Shown: in pieces, positions 10,212 to 54,030 of the stretch
Numbering within the stretch: the stretch's first letter is position 1
How the letters are laid out: each line of letters begins with the position of its first letter
Source: an uncultured Bacteroidota bacterium
Lineage (GTDB): Bacteria; Bacteroidota; Bacteroidia; Bacteroidales; UBA12077
Assembly (NCBI GenBank): GCA_913055635.1
Contig: CAJXLK010000031.1
Span: 1-54,533, forward strand
Reading direction: 5' to 3'
DNA length: 54,533 nt
The notes under the pieces: model-generated
The model's input: only the letters and a program-made list of their open reading frames with translations
Told to the model about the DNA's origin: nothing
Databases searched by the model: none
Made by a program: the position numbers and the translations under genes

Positions 10212-11062
10212 TTGCCATGAGATACCTGATAACAGCGATGATGCTGGCGGCCCTGCTGTCCGGGGGATGTCAGAATCAACAAAACAAGAACAAAAAGCCC
10301 ATCGCTAAAATTCACGATAAATACCTTTACCTGTCTGACCTGAACGATGTGATCCCGGACCAAAAATCCAAACAGGACAGCACGATGATCGCCAAGAATT
10401 ACATCAACGACTGGATCAAAAAGCAACTGCTGCTGAAAAAGGCGGAGAAAAACCTGGATCAGCAAAGCAAAGATATACAGCAACAAATAGAAAATTACAG
10501 GGCTTCCTTGCTGATTTACCGCTACCAGCAGCAATTAATCGACCAGAAACTGGATACAACAGTAAATCCGCAGGAAATCAAATCCTATTACCAGCAGAAT
10601 ACTTCCAATTTCACTTTGGACCAAAACCTGGTAAGGGTCCTCTACATCAAACTCTCTGAGAATTCGCCCAATATGGACCGGGTAAGAAGATGGTATAAGT
10701 CAAATGACAGCGAAGATCGGGCCCGGCTGAAAGACTATTGTTATCAATACGCCGAAAAATTCGACGATTTCAACAACAAGTGGGTGGAATTCAGCGGTTT
10801 AATTAACAACCTCCCTCTACAGGTAGATGATCCGGAGCATTTTATCAAAAACCGCAAATACGTGGAAATTAAAGACAATTCGGTTTACCACTTTTTACGC
10901 ATTCACGATTATAAGCTAAAGGGCAGTGAAGCCCCGTTGAATTATGTAAAAGAGCGAATCAGAAGCATCATCATCAATAAAAGAAAGCATCAGTTGTTGG
11001 AGAAAATGGAAAACGATATTTACAACGAAGCACTGAATCACAACGAATTTGTCATCTATTAA
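10208..11062 (+). CDS. putative lipoprotein, SurA/PPIase-related
   Basis: About 284 residues, beginning with a lipoprotein-type signal (MRYLITAMMLAALLSGGC), so probably lipidated at that Cys. The body is helical and SurA_N/trigger-factor-like (LSDLNDVIPDQ, NYINDWIKKQLLLKKAEKNL), with a short ending like the tail of parvulin chaperones (PLNYVKERIRSIIINKRKHQ). I see no intact parvulin catalytic domain, so it may be a chaperone-only paralogue. The start overlaps the previous stop (ATGA); the second ATG four codons in (10217) is equally possible. It is sandwiched in a three-gene chaperone operon. Confidence 0.75.
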   Translation: MIAMRYLITAMMLAALLSGGCQNQQNKNKKPIAKIHDKYLYLSDLNDVIPDQKSKQDSTMIAKNYINDWIKKQLLLKKAEKNLDQQSKDIQQQIENYRASLLIYRYQQQLIDQKLDTTVNPQEIKSYYQQNTSNFTLDQNLVRVLYIKLSENSPNMDRVRRWYKSNDSEDRARLKDYCYQYAEKFDDFNNKWVEFSGLINNLPLQVDDPEHFIKNRKYVEIKDNSVYHFLRIHDYKLKGSEAPLNYVKERIRSIIINKRKHQLLEKMENDIYNEALNHNEFVIY

Positions 11063-11075
11063 AAAAGCAAAATTT

Positions 11076-12416
11076 ATGCAGGCACCAATGAAGCAGATCA
11101 TATTGATCACGCTTTCTCTTTTTACTCTCATACCAGCTAGTGAAGCCCAGAACGGCAAGCTTATTGACCAGGTGGTAGCTATAGTGGGAGATAAGAAGAT
11201 ATTGCAATCCGACATTGAGAGTCAACGGATGCAGTACCGGGCAAGAGGTATGAACAAGGATAACTTAAGCTGCCAGTTGCTGAATGATCTGGTGACCCAG
11301 AAACTGTTGCTACGTCAGGCCGAGGTGGACAGCCTGGAGGTCAGCGAAAACCAGGTACAATCGCAACTGGACATGCGGTTAAGGTATTTTATCCGCCAGA
11401 TCGGCTCGCGCGAAAAGCTGGAACAATACTACAATAAGAGCATTCCTGAAATCCGGCAGGACTTCAGGGAATTGCTCCGCGAGCAAATCCGAACCCAGAA
11501 AATGCGCCAGCAGCTGATCAGCGATGTTTCGGTTTCCCCTAAGGAAGTCAGGGCTTTTTACCGGAACATGCCGCAAGACAGCATTCCGATGATCAACAAA
11601 AAGGTTCAGATCTCACAGATTGTGAAATACCCCCCGCAAAGCGTTCAAGCTGAGCGACAAGCCCGCCAGCGGTTGCTGGAGCTGAGAGAGAGGATTCAAA
11701 AAGGCGACAAATTTTCCACCATGGCGGTGCTTTACTCTGAAGACCAGGGTACGGCCAGCAAAGGCGGCGAACTGGGCTTCCGAACCGCCCAGGAGCTTGA
11801 TCCGGCCTATGCCGATGCCGCCTTTAGCCTCCAGGAGGGAGAAATCAGCAGTGTGGTCCAGTCGGCCTACGGTTATCATATCATCAAGTTAATTGATCGG
11901 CGCGAGAATGAAGTCAATACACGCCATATTCTCATTAAGCCTGATATCAAGGTCGCTCAAAAACAAAAGGTAATGAACCAGCTCGACAGCATTGCCACAG
12001 AAATACGAACGGGCAATATATCTTTCGAGCAAGCCGCCATTAAACATTCAGACGATAAAAAATACAAGATGAATGGCGGGATCATGGTCAATCCCAAAAA
12101 TGCCAGCAATGAATTTGAACTGGATGAATTGCCTCAACCCGACTACAATGCGGTGAAAGACCTAAAGGTGGGCCAAATATCCGATCCTTACGAAGCCAAG
12201 GATGACAAAGGCAAAAGCATCTTTAAAATCATCCGCCTCACCTCCAAAACCGACCGCCACAAGGCGACCATTGAGGAGGATTATAGCAAGCTCAGCCAAA
12301 TGGCCAAACGCAAAAAGCAACAAGAGATCATTCAGAAGTGGATCAACGACAAAAAGAAAGAAACCTACATCCACATTGATGAGGCATTTCAGGATTGCCA
12401 AATCACAACCCATTGA
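11076..12416 (+). CDS. surA: SurA-type periplasmic chaperone / peptidyl-prolyl isomerase
   Basis: About 447 residues with a signal peptide (MKQIILITLSLFTLIPASEA), a SurA N-terminal domain opening with LIDQVVAIVGDKKILQSDIE (classical SurA start), and two parvulin domains beginning near residues 175 (VQISQIVKYP) and 281 (NTRHILIKPD), with SKGGELGF and NGGIMVNP loops. This is the closest of the three tandem genes to true SurA. Starts at 11076 or 11088 are both plausible; an earlier in-frame ATG at 11049 lies inside the upstream gene. Downstream sit palindromic repeats and then the OstA-like gene, matching a conserved outer-membrane biogenesis order. Confidence 0.9.
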   Translation: MQAPMKQIILITLSLFTLIPASEAQNGKLIDQVVAIVGDKKILQSDIESQRMQYRARGMNKDNLSCQLLNDLVTQKLLLRQAEVDSLEVSENQVQSQLDMRLRYFIRQIGSREKLEQYYNKSIPEIRQDFRELLREQIRTQKMRQQLISDVSVSPKEVRAFYRNMPQDSIPMINKKVQISQIVKYPPQSVQAERQARQRLLELRERIQKGDKFSTMAVLYSEDQGTASKGGELGFRTAQELDPAYADAAFSLQEGEISSVVQSAYGYHIIKLIDRRENEVNTRHILIKPDIKVAQKQKVMNQLDSIATEIRTGNISFEQAAIKHSDDKKYKMNGGIMVNPKNASNEFELDELPQPDYNAVKDLKVGQISDPYEAKDDKGKSIFKIIRLTSKTDRHKATIEEDYSKLSQMAKRKKQQEIIQKWINDKKKETYIHIDEAFQDCQITTH

Positions 12417-12440: not shown

Positions 12441-12518
12441 ACCCCGCTAAGCGGGGGTTGAAAAAAATAAGACCCCGCTAAGCGGGGTCAGAAAAAACAT
12501 CACCCCGCTAAGCGGGGT
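12441..12518. repeat. palindromic repeat array A (three units, 30-31 bp period)
   Basis: Cores CCCCGCTAAGCGGGG lie at 12442-12456, 12473-12487 and 12503-12517, separated by 15-16 base spacers rich in A. Degenerate half-sites flank it (GACCCC at 12426 and CGGGGTGG near 12526). It occupies the 134-base gap between surA and the OstA-like gene. Each core can form a 7-bp GC-rich hairpin. The same unit recurs at 21.2 kb (inside a gene) and 52.3 kb. Confidence 0.9.
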
Positions 12519-12550
12519 GCAAAAACGGGGTGGCAGAAAAATTCCGCAGG

Positions 12551-14185
12551 ATGAAAAAAACCTCCCTAAAATTCGGCCTGCTCCTAGGGGGATTGATATG
12601 TGTAATGGCCAGCGCCGGGGCACAGGAACAACAGCCTGGCAAAACCCGGAAAATTGAAATCCTCCATGCCAATTCGCTGGTTTATAACAAAAAGATCAAC
12701 CCCGATGTGCGGCGCTTCATCGGCGATGTCAAATTCAAACATAATGAGTTCATTATGTACTGTGACAGCGCCTATTCCTATACCGGCCAGAACAAGATCG
12801 ACGCCTTCAGCAACGTACATATTACCCGGGGAGATACCCTTCACCTTTACGGAGATTATCTCAGCTATAACGGCAATACCAACCTGGGGAAAGTCCGCCG
12901 CAACGTCAAGTTAAAAGATCCCCAGGCCAGCCTCTACACCGATTCACTCAATTTTTACTCCGGGCGCAATTATGCCTATTATTTCAACGGGGGTAAGATC
13001 ATCAATCAGGACAAAACCATTACCAGCCGGGAAGGTCATTACTACTCGGACCGTAACATGGCCCATTTCAAAGACAGTGTCAAGATCAAGGACCCGGATT
13101 ACCGGGTTCACGCCGACACGCTCAATTACAACACCAAAACGGAGATTGCTTACTTTTTCGGGCCTACCCGAATATACAGTGATGAAAACTACCTCTATTG
13201 CGAAAACGGGTGGTACAAAACCATTCCAAACCAATTCTTCTTCAGAAAGAATGCGTTGTATCAGAAAAATGACCGGATCATCAAAGGTGATACCCTTTAC
13301 TATGATGATTCCCTGGGCTACGGCGAAATACGGAGCAATGCCGAAATCAGGGATACCACCAAAGACATCATCTTGCGGGGAAATTATTCGGAATATACCG
13401 ACGAGCCTGAAAAAGCCTATATGACCGACAGTGCCCACATGATCGCCGTGGATAAAGAATCGGATTCGCTATACCTTCATGCCGATACCCTTCGCTCTTT
13501 GATGGACTCCACCGGAGAACACCGGCTGTTTAAGGCCTATTATCAGGTCAAGATCTTCAAATCGAATATGCAGGGTAAATGCGACTCCCTGACCTTTGCC
13601 CAGCGCGACTCAATCATACGGATGTACCGGGATCCGGTCATCTGGAGTGACAGCACCCAGATCACAGCCGATTTCATCAAAATCTATACCCGCAACAACA
13701 ACGTCCGCAAGTTTGAACTGGAAGAATCGGCCTTTATGGTTAGTATGGAGGATACGGGACGCTTCAACCAGATCAAGGGCAACAACATGACCGGCTATTT
13801 CAGGGAAAACCAGCTGCGGCGGGTCCTGGTCAATGGCAACGGCCAAACCATCTATTATGCGAAGGATAAAGAAAATGTGGTGGGGGTGAACAAAGCCATC
13901 AGCAGCAATCTGCGCATCAAATTACTGGACAATCAGGTGATTAGTGTAACGCTCCTCAACGAGCCGGAAGGAACACTTCATCCGGTGGGCAATCTGAAGG
14001 AAGACCAACTTTCCGGTTTCCAATGGCTCATGGGCCAAAAGCCTAAAAGCAAATACGATATATTTAAGAAAGATCAATTGATGAGGCCTGAAAAGAAGAA
14101 GTCTGAAAAGAAGAAGTCTGAAGAGCAGGAGGCTGCGGAACAGGAAGCCACATCAAAGGCAGCCCCCCCGGCCTCAGGCCGTTAG
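12551..14185 (+). CDS. OstA-like (LptA/LptD-N type) LPS-transport protein
   Basis: Exported protein of about 544 residues with a signal peptide (MKKTSLKFGLLLGGLICVMA) and repeated OstA-type beta motifs through most of its length, for example FIGDVKFKHNEFIMYCDSA, YADTLNYN-like and IIKGDTLYYDDSLGYGE segments. Such proteins bind lipopolysaccharide in the periplasm or form the N-domain of LptD. The ATG at 12551 is preferred over a GTG at 12530 that lies in a degenerate half-copy of the upstream palindrome. The C-terminus is a charged low-complexity tail with a perfect 15-bp tandem duplication (14090-14119) encoding EKKKS twice, probably disordered. Confidence 0.85.
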   Translation: MKKTSLKFGLLLGGLICVMASAGAQEQQPGKTRKIEILHANSLVYNKKINPDVRRFIGDVKFKHNEFIMYCDSAYSYTGQNKIDAFSNVHITRGDTLHLYGDYLSYNGNTNLGKVRRNVKLKDPQASLYTDSLNFYSGRNYAYYFNGGKIINQDKTITSREGHYYSDRNMAHFKDSVKIKDPDYRVHADTLNYNTKTEIAYFFGPTRIYSDENYLYCENGWYKTIPNQFFFRKNALYQKNDRIIKGDTLYYDDSLGYGEIRSNAEIRDTTKDIILRGNYSEYTDEPEKAYMTDSAHMIAVDKESDSLYLHADTLRSLMDSTGEHRLFKAYYQVKIFKSNMQGKCDSLTFAQRDSIIRMYRDPVIWSDSTQITADFIKIYTRNNNVRKFELEESAFMVSMEDTGRFNQIKGNNMTGYFRENQLRRVLVNGNGQTIYYAKDKENVVGVNKAISSNLRIKLLDNQVISVTLLNEPEGTLHPVGNLKEDQLSGFQWLMGQKPKSKYDIFKKDQLMRPEKKKSEKKKSEEQEAAEQEATSKAAPPASGR

Positions 14186-19692: not shown

Positions 19693-19995
19693 TTAGCTGT
19701 TGCCTGCCGTTTTTCTGCGGTCTGCCATTATCTGCTATCTTGCCATTAGCTGCTGTCTTGTCGTTAGCTGCTATCTTGCTGTTAGCTGCTATCTTGCCGT
19801 TATCTGCTGTCTTGCCGTTAGCTGCTGCCTTCCATTATCTGCTATCTTGCCATTAGCTGCTGCCTTCCATTATCTGCTATCTTGCCATTAGCTGCTGCCT
19901 TCCATTAGCTGCTATCTGCCGTTAGCTGCTATCTTGCCATTAGCTGCTGCCTGCAGTTAGCTACTGTCTGCCATTAGCTGCTGCCTGCCGTTTTT
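19693..19995. repeat. 17/18-bp minisatellite, 16 units, overlapping a ligase gene's 3' end
   Basis: Sixteen units starting TTA(G/T)CTGCT follow one another, mostly 18 or 17 bases (typical unit TTAGCTGCTATCTTGCCA). Units 7-8 and 9-10 repeat as a 35-bp pair. The first unit (19693-19714) and the last (19974-19995) share a 22-base sequence, TTAGCTG(T/C)TGCC and onward, with one mismatch. The last unit is the coding end of the O-antigen ligase-like gene, including its stop codon (KTAGSS-stop). The array fills the 334 bases between two convergent genes; I see no other gene there. Confidence 0.92.
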
Positions 19996-21479
19996 GAGCT
20001 TTTCACCGCGATACCATTCATCACCAAAAGTCCATAAAAGAAAGCAAACGGTAAGATTCCGGGCAAACGGTTGAGCATGGATTCAAACATAAAATGCAGC
20101 ACAAATAAAAGAATCAATCCTGCGGCCAGATAATCCTTCTCTCTGAAAGAAATAATCAGCGGCCAGATCAGCAACATTAGCAACAGGATCAGCCCGAAAA
20201 AACCGGTTCCCATATAAGTTGATAAATACTGGTTGTGGGGATTAAAATTGTGGTCCATATACTGGCGGATGTTCCTGCGCTGATAGGCCCGGTTCAATTC
20301 TTTCTGTACATCGCCCGTACCCATGCCCCACCAGCAATGTTCGCGGGAAAGCTCGAGGCTGGTTTCCCAGATTAAAAAGCGCAGGGCATCGTTTTCTATC
20401 AGCTCCTGATGGCTAACCTGGTGTCCCTGTAGTAACTTCCGGCCCAGATCCAGGTAATTGTCGAAACGATAATTGGTTAACCCCAACACGGTGACCACAA
20501 CCAAACCGGCCGTTAAGACCCCTTTAAGTTTGCGTCCCCGGGCATAATGCACGATGGTATAAGCGAACAAAACAACCAGTCCGATGATCCCGGCCCGGGA
20601 AGAAACCAGAAAAATCATCAGGGTGAAAAAAACGATCAAACCGGCTATCCATCTTCTGCTTACCGGGGGATGCGGCCGGTGATACAAATAGAACAGAAAA
20701 GCCACACACAATTCCATGTGAAGCGCATAATAAGTGGATTGATTAAGCAATGCAAAATCCGTATATATCCAGTAAAGGGGATAATCCACAAAATCCCGGA
20801 AATATTCGGGATGACTCAGTTTGCCCAGATAGAAACCAATGTAAAACAATGAAATCGCAAGATTGGCAGCAATAAAAGAAGCCAGGATATCATCCTTTCG
20901 CTTGCCCCGGAGGGCGGAAAGGGTTGAAAAGGCCAGCGGCAATAGCAGAATGGTCAGTTTGCGTTCCAGATCAAACAGGGCATGGCCAAAATCAGAAGAG
21001 GTCCATAAACTCACAACATGAAGCAAATAAAAGGCGATCACTATATAAAGAAGGGATTGACGGCCCCGGGTGGCGGAGGAAACCGTTACCGTGGTTTGTG
21101 GTAAGAAATGTTTTACCCCCGATGGCTGTATTCCCCCCCATTTTGGCCTCAATGGCTTTAACCTTGATGGTTCCAACCCCGCTAAGCGGGGGTGGGCATT
21201 TTTGAACCCCGCTAAGCGGGGTGTCATATTTTCAGACCCCGCTAAGCGGGGTGGGGTGAATTTCGACCCCGCTAAGCGGGGTATTACGATGCGCAGAAGC
21301 CACACCCCCATCACCCCGCCGGTCAGATAGCGGGTCAGCTCGATGTGAAAAGGCATGGAAAAAGCGGTCATCACAAGTAAGATGAATAGCCACTCATCCA
21401 AAGACCTTTCCCTTAACCTGCGAAAAAAACGAATCACACTCTTTTCAGGATACTTCATAATCCTTGCTAATCCATACAT
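19974..21479 (-). CDS. O-antigen ligase/polymerase-like membrane protein with in-frame palindromic repeats
   Basis: Polytopic Wzy/WaaL-type protein of about 500 residues with many hydrophobic segments, a large loop containing the FNPHNQYLSTYMG signature (about residue 415) typical of O-antigen ligases, and SRAGIIGL. Between the second and third membrane segments (about residues 67-107) lie four exact decapeptide repeats starting PRLAG, encoded by the palindromic repeat array, then a further unconserved stretch to about residue 135. The C-terminus (KTAGSS) is encoded by the neighbouring minisatellite unit. Starts at 21488 (GTG), 21479 (ATG) and 21458 (ATG) are all possible. It would polymerise or ligate the glycan on the periplasmic side. 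Confidence 0.85.
   Translation of the reverse strand: MYGLARIMKYPEKSVIRFFRRLRERSLDEWLFILLVMTAFSMPFHIELTRYLTGGVMGVWLLRIVIPRLAGSKFTPPRLAGSENMTPRLAGFKNAHPRLAGLEPSRLKPLRPKWGGIQPSGVKHFLPQTTVTVSSATRGRQSLLYIVIAFYLLHVVSLWTSSDFGHALFDLERKLTILLLPLAFSTLSALRGKRKDDILASFIAANLAISLFYIGFYLGKLSHPEYFRDFVDYPLYWIYTDFALLNQSTYYALHMELCVAFLFYLYHRPHPPVSRRWIAGLIVFFTLMIFLVSSRAGIIGLVVLFAYTIVHYARGRKLKGVLTAGLVVVTVLGLTNYRFDNYLDLGRKLLQGHQVSHQELIENDALRFLIWETSLELSREHCWWGMGTGDVQKELNRAYQRRNIRQYMDHNFNPHNQYLSTYMGTGFFGLILLLMLLIWPLIISFREKDYLAAGLILLFVLHFMFESMLNRLPGILPFAFFYGLLVMNGIAVKSSKTAGSS
21176..21282. repeat. palindromic repeat array B (four units, exact 30-bp period, in-frame in a CDS)
   Basis: Cores CCCCGCTAAGCGGGG lie at 21177, 21207, 21237 and 21267 (first bases), each separated by a 15-base spacer of differing sequence. 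The exact 30-base period keeps the ligase reading frame open: on the minus strand each unit reads PRLAG plus five variable residues. The spacers vary much more than the cores, as expected if the palindrome itself is the conserved or recently copied unit. Confidence 0.95.
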
Positions 21480-21506
21480 ATCTGCCACTTTACCCCAGGC
21501 TTTTAA

Positions 21507-51186: not shown

Positions 51187-52182
51187 TCATTCATTTTCCC
51201 GAAAATAATTAATTTCTTTTAACAACGGGTCAATTTCGGTATAATTTATTAACAGAATTTCCTCCGATTGCTCGAATCGTCCATAAAGGAAATTCAGGTC
51301 ATAAGGGGGGTGTTGTCCGAAGGCATCTTCCCGGGTGGTGGCGGGTTTACGGTAGGTGGAGAGTTTCCGGGGGTTGCCCTTGACATCGGTAATATGGATG
51401 GTGCAGAAGGGCTGGCTTTGGGCCAGGGAATCCCTCAGGTGGGAGTCATCCATGATGATCGAATGGAAACGGACATTGCCGAAATAGCTGAAATAGCGCG
51501 CCGCTTTGTTGCTGCTGAAACGATCCGCCCATTGGTTCCGGGCAAGGTCTTTCAGGAGGAATTCATCTTCCTGGTAAGTGAGCAGAAAAGATGAAGCGGT
51601 ATCCTCGGGATAAATCACTTCAACGGCCTTTATATCGAGGCCTGAATAATCAAACAGGGTGCGGTCGCGCCAGTATGAGACATCCACCCGATAAAGATCG
51701 GCCAGATCTCCCTGGTATCCGGGCAAACTCATCAAATAAGGATGCGAGCTGTTGCGCACCATCATATAATTGTGGTGCTTGCGGGAAGGACTTTGCTCTA
51801 CCAGGTAATCGCGGATCAAACGGTCGTTTTGATAAATTTTGACCGATACCCGGTGCTTGCGGATCTCCTCAACCAATATCTCCCGTTTATCCGCTGCTGC
51901 AGGCGCTTCAATCCGTATATCCTCGAGTAAATTAAAAAACTGCTGCACGGCCTTCTTACGGGCATAGATCTGTTCATTGACATACCACTTACCGCCCCTG
52001 CGGTGAAGCTTAATGCGATTCCCGTTGCTGCTAAGCAACACTGAATCAACCTGTTGATCCTGACCCAGGCCAAACCGGGTATACTCAGAATCCAAAGTGC
52101 CCTGCTGATCCTTTACGTAAAGATAGGCCGCCACAGCAACCAACAAAACCAAAAGCACGATGTATACAACGGATTTTTTCAT
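51187..52182 (-). CDS. DUF4340 domain membrane-anchored protein
   Basis: About 331 residues: an N-terminal membrane anchor (MKKSVVYIVLLVLLVAVAAY) and a periplasmic DUF4340 region (VNEQIYARKKAVQQFFNLLE, YLVEQSPSRKHHNYMMVRNS, YWRDRTLFDYSGLDIKAVEV). DUF4340 proteins often accompany GldG/ABC-2 type transporter genes, as here, where gldF and gldG lie upstream on the same strand. The palindromic array C lies in the 150-base gap between gldG and this gene, so it may modulate their co-expression. Confidence 0.85.
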   Translation of the reverse strand: MKKSVVYIVLLVLLVAVAAYLYVKDQQGTLDSEYTRFGLGQDQQVDSVLLSSNGNRIKLHRRGGKWYVNEQIYARKKAVQQFFNLLEDIRIEAPAAADKREILVEEIRKHRVSVKIYQNDRLIRDYLVEQSPSRKHHNYMMVRNSSHPYLMSLPGYQGDLADLYRVDVSYWRDRTLFDYSGLDIKAVEVIYPEDTASSFLLTYQEDEFLLKDLARNQWADRFSSNKAARYFSYFGNVRFHSIIMDDSHLRDSLAQSQPFCTIHITDVKGNPRKLSTYRKPATTREDAFGQHPPYDLNFLYGRFEQSEEILLINYTEIDPLLKEINYFRENE

Positions 52183-52253: not shown

Positions 52254-52318
52254 ACCCCGCTTAGCGGGGTCAAATGGTTCGAACCCCGCTTAGCGGACCC
52301 CGCTAAGCGGGGTTCGAA
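52254..52318. repeat. palindromic repeat array C with perfect 19-bp inverted repeat
   Basis: CCCCGCTTAGCGGGG (reverse-complement orientation of the core) lies at 52255-52269. Then a truncated CCCCGCTTAGCGG (52284-52296) meets a full CCCCGCTAAGCGGGG (52298-52312) head to head. As a result TTCGAACCCCGCTTAGCGG (52278-52296) and CCGCTAAGCGGGGTTCGAA (52300-52318) form a perfect inverted repeat around three bases. A half-site ACCCCGCTTTC is at about 52240. It lies between gldG and the DUF4340 gene. Confidence 0.92.
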
Positions 52319-52332
52319 CAAGCAGGGCTTCA

Positions 52333-54030
52333 TCAGAAGCGTTTATACTTGAGGCGCCGCCAATAATTCTTGATCAAACCAAAGACAAGGATCAACAGGA
52401 TGGGCACCCCGACATTGATGAGCTGCCATTTCATCCTTTGATTGGCCACTTTTTCCTTATCCAGCAGGCGCATCTTCACTTCCCTGGAACGAATGCCAAT
52501 GAGCCCTTCCTTGTTGGCCAGATAATGCACGCAATTGACCAAAAAGGGTTTGTTGCCATAGGTTTGCCGGGTATACTGATCGTAGCCCAAAGGGCTGATC
52601 ATGGTTCCATTGGGTTGATGGTTGACTTCATTTTCAATCATATCTCCGTCTGAGATAACAATCATCCGGGTCTGGCTGCTGGATGCCCGCAAGGGCAGGT
52701 TCGTGTTTTTTTCCAGGTTGGAAGTGAACCGGTTTTTAAAGACCGATTGGAATTTGCCTTCCAGCAAAACCCCGGTGATCAGGTTCTTTTGGTCATAGGC
52801 CCGGGGATTGGGTTTGCCGGAGATCTCGCTCAAATCCACCAGGGTTGGCGCCTGGATGGTCTTGGAATGCTCCGAGGTGGTTAGCAATACCTGTTTATGC
52901 ACCCCGGGGGAAGCGGCAACAGTGTCGATGGAACTGATGAATTCGGTTCGGATCATGTTCAGGTTCTTGTTGATGGCATGGTTGTTTGGTGAAGACAGCA
53001 ACGGGAAATAAGGCCACGGGGAAGGAGAAAAGTCGGGCTCATCTCCTTTATAGGCTGTATTAACCGGTATAACGGCACATTGCATGTCTTTGACCAGGTT
53101 GGGGTTGATCCGGACCCCATAGTTGAAGAGCTGATCGCTTAAATTGAGCTTGTTGATGGTAGCCATGGTCGAGCTGCCAACCCTGAGGCTGTCCATGCGG
53201 AGGTGGACCCGGTCAATCATCCAAAGAATACGCCCCCCGCGCATTACATACTGATCCAGGGCATATTTGGAAGTTTTAGAAAAAGCCTTCCTGGGCTGGG
53301 CCACAATAAGGGTTTGGTAATCTTTTATCCGGGGAAGTTCCCCCGGAAGATTGAGCCGCTCCACCTGGTAATAATCCTGCAAGGTCTTGGTTATATCGCC
53401 TACCTGATACTTATCGAGTTCCCCCTGACCGGTGATGAAAGCAATGGGCTTTTTCTGCTCCAGGGTAAGTTTGTAAATGGCATCAATCAGCTTATATTCA
53501 AGGGCCTGGATGGAATGGTTCAGGTTCTCACTGCCCGAGAGCCCCGGGTTGTTCTTGAGCAAATTCACCGCGGTCTGCTCTTCTCCCTGGTTGACAATGG
53601 CCCCGGGAAAAATCAGCTTCTGGGTATAGCCCCCTCCTTGTTGCCGGCTCCTGACATTGGTCGGCTCCAGGCCCTTATTCCGCAACTCCTCAAACAGCGC
53701 CTGCCGATTCTTCTGATCATTGCCAGCCGAAGGATTGATGAAGCGGTACTGGATATGGTCGCCGGCATATACGCGAAACTCATTGAGCATCTCCTTAATC
53801 CGCGTCTGCATCCGCTTCAAACCAATGGGCATATCCCCCGCCAAATAAACTTTAAAATAAACCACATCATCCAGTTCCTTTAAAACCGTTTTGGTCTTTG
53901 GCTTTAAAGTATACCGGTTGTCGGCTGTCAGGTCAAAACGGTGATAGACCCTGGAAAAAATCACGTTCAGAACAATGATGATGGCAAAAAGCAATAAAAA
54001 TTCCAGCAGATTTTTCCTTTTTCTTGACAT
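52333..54030 (-). CDS. gldG: gliding-motility-associated ABC transporter substrate-binding protein GldG
   Basis: About 565 residues. An N-terminal membrane helix (LLEFLLLFAIIIVLNVIF) is followed by the SRVYHRFDLTADNRYTLKPK segment characteristic of GldG, a large periplasmic ABC-2-type auxiliary domain (IAFITGQGELDKYQVGDITK; GGRILWMIDRVH; LIVAQPRKAF) and a C-terminal helix (VPILLILVFGLIKNYW). With GldF and the ATPase GldA it forms an ABC transporter required for gliding in some Bacteroidota, although many non-gliding species carry it too. The 11-base gap to gldF suggests an operon. Confidence 0.93.
   Translation of the reverse strand: MSRKRKNLLEFLLLFAIIIVLNVIFSRVYHRFDLTADNRYTLKPKTKTVLKELDDVVYFKVYLAGDMPIGLKRMQTRIKEMLNEFRVYAGDHIQYRFINPSAGNDQKNRQALFEELRNKGLEPTNVRSRQQGGGYTQKLIFPGAIVNQGEEQTAVNLLKNNPGLSGSENLNHSIQALEYKLIDAIYKLTLEQKKPIAFITGQGELDKYQVGDITKTLQDYYQVERLNLPGELPRIKDYQTLIVAQPRKAFSKTSKYALDQYVMRGGRILWMIDRVHLRMDSLRVGSSTMATINKLNLSDQLFNYGVRINPNLVKDMQCAVIPVNTAYKGDEPDFSPSPWPYFPLLSSPNNHAINKNLNMIRTEFISSIDTVAASPGVHKQVLLTTSEHSKTIQAPTLVDLSEISGKPNPRAYDQKNLITGVLLEGKFQSVFKNRFTSNLEKNTNLPLRASSSQTRMIVISDGDMIENEVNHQPNGTMISPLGYDQYTRQTYGNKPFLVNCVHYLANKEGLIGIRSREVKMRLLDKEKVANQRMKWQLINVGVPILLILVFGLIKNYWRRLKYKRF

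Follow-up and report, generated by a model that had tools for sequence, protein, structure and literature searches.

A palindromic repeat of a probable atypical REP/RAYT system in a Bacteroidota genome, with one array read in frame inside an O-antigen ligase family gene

We begin by considering the locus itself, which lies in a stretch of 54,533 nucleotides (hereafter the window) from an uncultured bacterium of the Bacteroidota. We denote its genome as G000 and four genomes of the same genus as G001, G002, G003 and G004. The gene of interest is assigned to the O-antigen ligase family by a Pfam match (PF04932, 79 bits over residues 284-437) and by a match of residues 280-449 to a polysaccharide polymerase/ligase (PDB entry 7tpg, E 4.1e-5). 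The assignment also agrees with the gene order: in both G003 and G002 the ligase gene adjoins a DUF3108 gene (79% and 80% identical, respectively), and a glycosyltransferase gene (65% and 58% identical) is also found beside it. The features of the window are collected in Table 1. Between the DUF3108 gene and the ligase gene of the window lies an 18-bp tandem unit in about 15-17 copies (positions 19693-19989), an array that runs into the last codons of the ligase; the unit has no match elsewhere in the G000 DNA examined.

Table 1. Coordinates of the ligase gene, its loop and the palindrome arrays in the window
Feature	Position	Strand	Basis or context
Intergenic array, three copies	12442..12517	.	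between PPIase gene (11049-12416) and OstA_2 gene (12530-14185)
O-antigen ligase family gene (Wzy_C), 504 aa, array in frame	19974..21488	(-)	PF04932, 7tpg, synteny
Lineage-specific long loop, residues 66-145, 80 aa	21054..21293	(-)	alignment with orthologues
Palindrome copy 1	21177..21191	+	exact CCCCGCTAAGCGGGG in window
Palindrome copy 2	21207..21221	+	exact CCCCGCTAAGCGGGG in window
Palindrome copy 3	21237..21251	+	exact CCCCGCTAAGCGGGG in window
Palindrome copy 4	21267..21281	+	exact CCCCGCTAAGCGGGG in window
Intergenic array, two exact copies and one damaged	52255..52312	.	pattern matches in window

The ligase frame contains four exact units of the 15-bp palindrome CCCCGCTAAGCGGGG with a period of 30 bp, and in each unit the codons CCC CGC TTA GCG GGG are read as PRLAG. 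The initial annotation had described this array, its decapeptides starting with PRLAG and two intergenic arrays of the same palindrome at 12.4 and 52.3 kb, and all of these are present as described. The array at 52.3 kb is flanked by a DUF4340-like gene (51187-52182, with 24.8 bits against a cut-off of 25) and an ABC_transp_aux gene (52333-54030). While the four cores in the ligase are identical in DNA, the 15-nt spacers between them are just 40-47% alike, which is near the 38% seen between different arrays. Either this array is older and its cores have been kept alike, or its units arrived separately. The array has a DNA hairpin z of -7.8. When the ligase protein is compared with its own genome, ten matches are obtained, one to itself and nine confined to the repeat region.

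The protein search gives matches to the ligase in 49 of the 59 relative genomes, of which only 28 loci are used further; 27 of these are aligned, one (L088) being dropped without a usable ORF. The array block is absent from all 27 homologues, and none of them keeps the PRLAG repeats. The loop concerned has 80 residues in G000 and only 23 and 19 residues in the syntenic orthologues of G003 (L064) and G002 (L065), a gain of 57 and 61 residues, of which the four palindrome units account for about 40. The other 20 or so residues are not palindrome units and have no other match in the G000 DNA examined, which counts against the REP/RAYT reading given below. The insertion first placed at residues 67-107 is thus lineage-specific, but the extra stretch is longer than the array. 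On its two sides, residues 20-71 and 143-491 match the orthologues with the fewest differences at codon position 2, which indicates that both sides are translated.

The initial annotation had further proposed that a surface loop is added, and this part is unsupported. The stretch of residues 53-144 contains 15 lysines and arginines and 2 aspartates and glutamates, and by the positive-inside rule such a composition suggests, with some uncertainty, a loop in the cytoplasm. The membrane side is uncertain because the count of the preceding membrane segments is not settled: one hydrophobic segment is scored (34-52), and a second (53-71) is a reading by eye. In the two orthologues, palindromic repeats are seen just upstream of the ligase gene, which may mark a favoured place or may be due to chance. 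In L064 several damaged palindromes are located upstream of the gene (2755-2900), and the first residues of that ligase frame may be read from a damaged palindrome.

We turn our attention to the palindrome as a repeat of the whole genome. In the window, CCCCGCTAAGCGGGG gives 19 matches with up to two mismatches (most sites being counted on both strands), compared with 0.14 in shuffles. When the search suggested in the initial annotation is extended to the whole genome and its relatives, 540 exact copies are found in G000 (4.08 Mb in 77 contigs) with none of the reversed control, and among 59 relatives, four of them of the same genus, there are two copies in G002 and none in the other 58. Of the two results that the initial annotation named as refuting its reading, neither was obtained: the genome is rich in further copies, and PRLAG repeats are missing from every aligned homologue. 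A two-copy pattern gives no match in genome_contigs, from which the own and near genomes may be missing, and none in viral_contigs.

As a sample, we use the window and 40 fixed stretches of 20 kb at pre-chosen coordinates, 854,533 b in all and 85% coding by the same gene caller. The sample has 90 exact cores, and cores with one and two mismatches number only 5 and 12; for these three classes one shuffle gives 0, 0 and 3, respectively. The exact cores form 28 arrays, of which the three in the window were known beforehand: the neighbouring genes are in tandem for 13, convergent for 9 and divergent for 4, and the remaining 2 lie inside called ORFs, namely the ligase and an unsupported 91-codon ORF. 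A called gene edge is located within 30 bp in 20 of the 26 intergenic arrays, and in 8 of the 9 convergent arrays the nearby edge is a 3' end. A larger set of 88 distinct arrays, covering 315 of the 540 cores, was partly chosen for palindromes and is biased to first-listed and period-30 loci; four of its arrays are set 30 or more codons deep in an ORF of at least 120 aa, and only the ligase among these is a recognisable gene. The other three (ORFs of 120-211 aa) have no Pfam family at E 0.01 and are counted as unsupported. The earlier notion that a palindromic element of this lineage can enter genes is therefore borne out by the ligase and by the lineage-specific, high-copy nature of the repeat, but as an exception, with one of 88 arrays in a recognisable gene.

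One clean intergenic empty site is seen between two convergent genes: in G003 the gap between them is about 24 bp, and in G000 it measures about 145 bp and contains an array. We also considered whether the palindromes of G003 and G000 occupy the same gene edges, and this is unsupported: a G000 palindrome is within 150 bp of the orthologous edge at 4 of 15 palindrome edges of G003 and at 6 of 40 edges without one (Fisher p 0.43). An earlier comparison over 19 loci looked better, part of its G000 DNA having been chosen for palindromes.

The internal structure of the arrays is informative about their growth. For the 171 pairs of adjacent cores in 72 arrays, the commonest spacings are 30 bp (41 pairs) and 31 bp (23 pairs), and in 132 of the 171 the two cores have the same centre base. 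The 15-nt spacers within one array are on average 80% alike (43 pairs), compared with the value between arrays given above, which indicates that many arrays grew by tandem copying. The base frequencies beside 178 oriented cores contain no canonical GT[AG]G foot 5' of the hairpin, and no constant T-run is found after the stem. The stop-free reading frame that was thought to make an insertion tolerable is indeed open in the ligase, but the repeat gives no guarantee of it, since 30 of the 52 arrays with at least three cores have no open frame.

The genome also contains a RAYT-type HUH Y1 gene, which is split over two contig ends, C51 (75 aa) and C64 (144 aa), with 25 residues common to the two pieces (the last of the C51 piece and the first of the C64 frame). 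Because the gene is visible only as these two overlapping contig ends, its intactness is presumed. The two contigs break off within the gene and share about 75 bp there, and this shared end suggests an assembly fork, perhaps with more than one RAYT copy. Palindromes are located beyond both ends of the gene, on one side past a further gene: the array on C51 (478-558) is about 250 bp from the RAYT piece, and that on C64 (1149-1299) is about 710 bp past the RAYT stop, beyond another gene (530-1057). The motifs NHFH (HUH) and YIHQNP, together with a match to NCBIfam NF047646 (REP_Tyr_transpos), mark the product as a putative RAYT relative, where the scores of the C64 piece (47.9 bits), the G003 protein (60.8) and the G002 protein (52.1) are all below the cut-off of 80. 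The match to Pfam Y1_Tnp is also below its cut-off, which weighs against a REP/RAYT reading, and the TnpArep structure (PDB entry 4er8) gives a weak profile match (E 3.1e-4, the best stretch covering 27 residues).

In G002 and G003 the RAYT gene is whole (194 aa). The RAYT genes of G000, G002 and G003 have the same neighbour genes, one of them 73-75% identical, which we take to be a TPM-like gene, and the second 64-69% identical. The RAYT of G003 (L124) is directly flanked on both sides by CAGCGCTAAGCGCTG, which has 42 copies in G003 and none in G000; this repeat and the G000 palindrome have different stems around the same GCTAAGC centre. The repeat flanking the G002 RAYT (L125) is a 12-bp tandem with CCCTTAGCGG, and neither this RAYT nor its named near-copy L204 has a GCTWAGC within 500 bp, which again goes against the REP/RAYT reading. 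Arrays of 12-bp units in G002, with the unit CCCCTTAGCGG containing A or T, are seen upstream of the ligase (L065, about 1215-1315) and at both flanks of the RAYT region (L125, 1157-1245 and 2786-2872). In L124 the gene beside the RAYT reads into a palindrome (137-163), so that its last residues are QRLAQR followed by a TAA stop; as the sequence reads, this is a second protein with an apparently repeat-derived end.

The shorter motif CGCTWAGCG is found 623 times in G000, 214 times in G003, 88 times in G002, 32 times in G001 and not at all in G004 (which is 57% complete), with reversed controls of 25, 13, 17, 2 and 6, respectively. The other 54 genomes have 0-32 occurrences compared with 1-47 in the reversed controls, so that high copy numbers are confined to this genus within the set of genomes searched. 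In G001 and G004 the RAYT match shares only 37-39% identity with the G003 protein, and the repeats around it are mainly of other kinds. Since the match in G001 is only 37% identical, the 32 occurrences in that genome lack a close RAYT, and we regard this as counter-evidence.

A scan with the RAYT alignment gives 80 named loci, nearly all from Bacteroidota judging by their names, the closest being that of Bacteroidales bacterium GSL_GSL3510_15 (100% identical to the G003 protein). The RAYT tree has 94 rows, 84 of them different, and the RAYT of G000 is not among them; five of 99 loci were dropped (four short, one without a match), while the long branch L142 and the near-copies were kept. At least two GCTWAGC are present within 500 bp of the RAYT in 22 of the 94 rows, and this label requires 5 changes on the tree compared with 19.9 for shuffles, none of 500 shuffles being as low. 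The GCTWAGC centre therefore largely belongs to a RAYT clade while the outer stem changes, with G002 going against this pattern. Repeat-flanked RAYTs also occur in several genus g2 and named genomes. In genus g2, TGCTWAGCA pairs 18 bp apart are found at 5 of 13 RAYT loci, and the fold of one of these pairs is a hairpin mismatched at its centre. The 10-29 occurrences of TGCTWAGCA per genome, compared with 5-40 in the reversed controls, give no large genome-wide increase, which indicates that a RAYT and hairpins are insufficient for a burst.

These observations can be compared with known systems. Of the broad marks of a REP/RAYT system, we find a RAYT-type gene, repeats flanking it, many and mainly extragenic copies, and a repeat specific to the RAYT lineage; a GTAG foot was looked for and is absent, and we therefore file the palindrome as a variant and not as a canonical REP. 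As far as the text of PMC6006769 describes it, the TnpAY1 subclass 2.6 (RAYT group 5) of Bacteroidetes has atypical hairpins without GT[AG]G and with copies elsewhere in the genome, and the present system agrees in its phylum (by the named relatives), its Y1 HUH gene, the YIHQNP and SS motifs, the flanking hairpins without GT[AG]G and the copies elsewhere. It differs from that description in the HUH motif (NHFH, where the paper has NH[LIV]H), in the W region (WQ in the paper), in the palindromic nature of each arm, in the 30-31 bp arrays and in the 540 exact copies (PMC6006769). A similar hairpin may stand in the supplementary table of that paper. Like the REPINs or BIMEs, as the passages of PMC6006769 define them, the present repeats form hairpin pairs or clusters near gene ends and are dispersed in a RAYT-bearing genome; unlike them, most pairs of adjacent cores agree in the centre base, and a single arm is already a palindrome, by which the orientation of the repeat is nearly lost.

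The parallel drawn at first was with the Rickettsia palindromic elements, and it stands in that palindromes are inserted in frame inside protein genes, though rarely here; the nearest kind is rather REP/RAYT, given the palindrome-framed RAYT-type gene, and the Rickettsia elements belong to another phylum. We know of no RAYT for these elements. RPE-4 and RPE-6 are counted among the repeats of PMC3733652, where REP clusters inside coding regions encode 43-82 residues in Thauera and R. conorii and most copies are intergenic. The ligase array resembles these in being a palindromic repeat in a coding region with most copies intergenic, but those repeats are GTAG or CGTC REPs and many lie in genes of DNA synthesis or repair (PMC3733652), while the present repeat has no visible GTAG foot and is carried by a polysaccharide ligase gene. 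Going by what these two sources describe, REPs inside genes and atypical Bacteroidetes REPs are both already published, and the present case combines the two. The present system departs from the known ones in its self-palindromic arm, its arrays with a period of 30-31 bp, how many exact copies it has, and a repeat around an orthologous RAYT that changes from one congener to another; in the library searched, no paper on the GCTAAGC palindrome in a Bacteroid- context was found.

Combining this information, we read the case as a REP/RAYT system of an atypical kind in which one protein is decorated by REPs, and we consider it probable that the palindrome is a non-autonomous repeat of such a system, similar to subclass 2.6 of the Bacteroidota. 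The split RAYT gene is likely the engine of its spread. The RAYT would recognise single-stranded hairpins, for which each 15-mer can fold alone and neighbours can also pair, and by cutting them would let new copies arise, which would be tolerated mostly between genes; that RAYTs copy hairpins is a proposal made for REPs in general, according to the text of PMC6006769. Many arrays would then expand by tandem copying with a favoured period of 30-31 bp. In the ligase, the array would have inserted where the gene encodes a loop close to the N-terminus, and it may have survived because its frame is open (PRLAG), its units are spaced by multiples of three and it lies within a loop. The ligase would thereby have gained about 60 residues of a basic loop, probably cytoplasmic and probably neutral. 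The data show neither a target-site duplication nor cutting, and this counts against the REP/RAYT reading.

The alternatives can be weighed with the same evidence. The palindromes could be regulatory or termination hairpins of the host that selection keeps identical, with the RAYT as an incidental neighbour and the ligase array as a copying accident. The positions of the intergenic arrays at gene edges, and at 3' ends where genes converge, would fit such a role, as would the strong hairpins (that of the ligase array included) and the cores being far more uniform than the spacers. We nevertheless regard it as improbable, given that the congeners searched have few or no copies of the palindrome, that the orthologous RAYT of G003 has a different stem around it, that the stem has no constant T-run after it, and that 4 of the 28 sampled arrays lie between divergent genes. 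That the 15-bp cores are almost perfectly identical across many contigs could also point to binding sites of a DNA-organising protein or a defence factor with a preference for the odd palindrome, multiplied by selection and not by transposition. Arrays with a 30-31 bp period and copied spacers are against this, and the same motif frames the RAYT gene and is associated with RAYTs across species, so that we give this explanation very little weight.

Two further explanations concern the ligase array. If PRLAG were an ancestral or functional protein repeat of the ligase, with the identity in DNA due to codon preference, then the ten-codon period, the single reading frame and the shared codons would all follow; we find this hardly credible when none of the 27 aligned homologues has the repeat and the genome contains hundreds of copies of this DNA, almost all of them intergenic in the part examined. 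A mis-join of an intergenic array into the ligase gene during assembly deserves consideration because repeats did trouble this assembly, as its 77 contigs and the RAYT split at contig ends indicate, and because palindromic repeats stand just upstream of the same gene in G002 and G003. The frame stays open across the array, and on either side of it the gene agrees with the orthologues in the order of its segments and in synteny, which makes such an error very unlikely.

For the REP/RAYT reading there is also a broader version, in which RAYT and hairpin change the stem together between species while the GCTAAGC centre stays, and the arms in this genus became self-palindromic, array-forming and protein-readable units, so that a transposase-linked repeat would supply loops and tails to proteins; we hold this version to be doubtful. 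The evidence that RAYTs spread REPs is still largely associative. In the present genus, three genomes have an orthologous RAYT with the same neighbours, differing flank repeats and 88, 214 and 623 CGCTWAGCG, and such orthologous RAYTs with different repeats in near relatives make recognition, burst and stem change testable. The ligase, with orthologues that lack the insert, is a clear case of protein growth by such a repeat.

Finally, many of the more distant RAYTs have other repeats common to both flanks (38 loci examined). Those of L222, L223, L225, L226, L228, L233, L236 and L240 share flank repeats, for example with GTGNCACGG or GGTATGCCATACC, and these look like families of their own. In a named strain, Gaoshiqia sediminis (L213), the RAYT is flanked on either side by many copies of self-palindromic arms of the form CCGCTTAGCGG.
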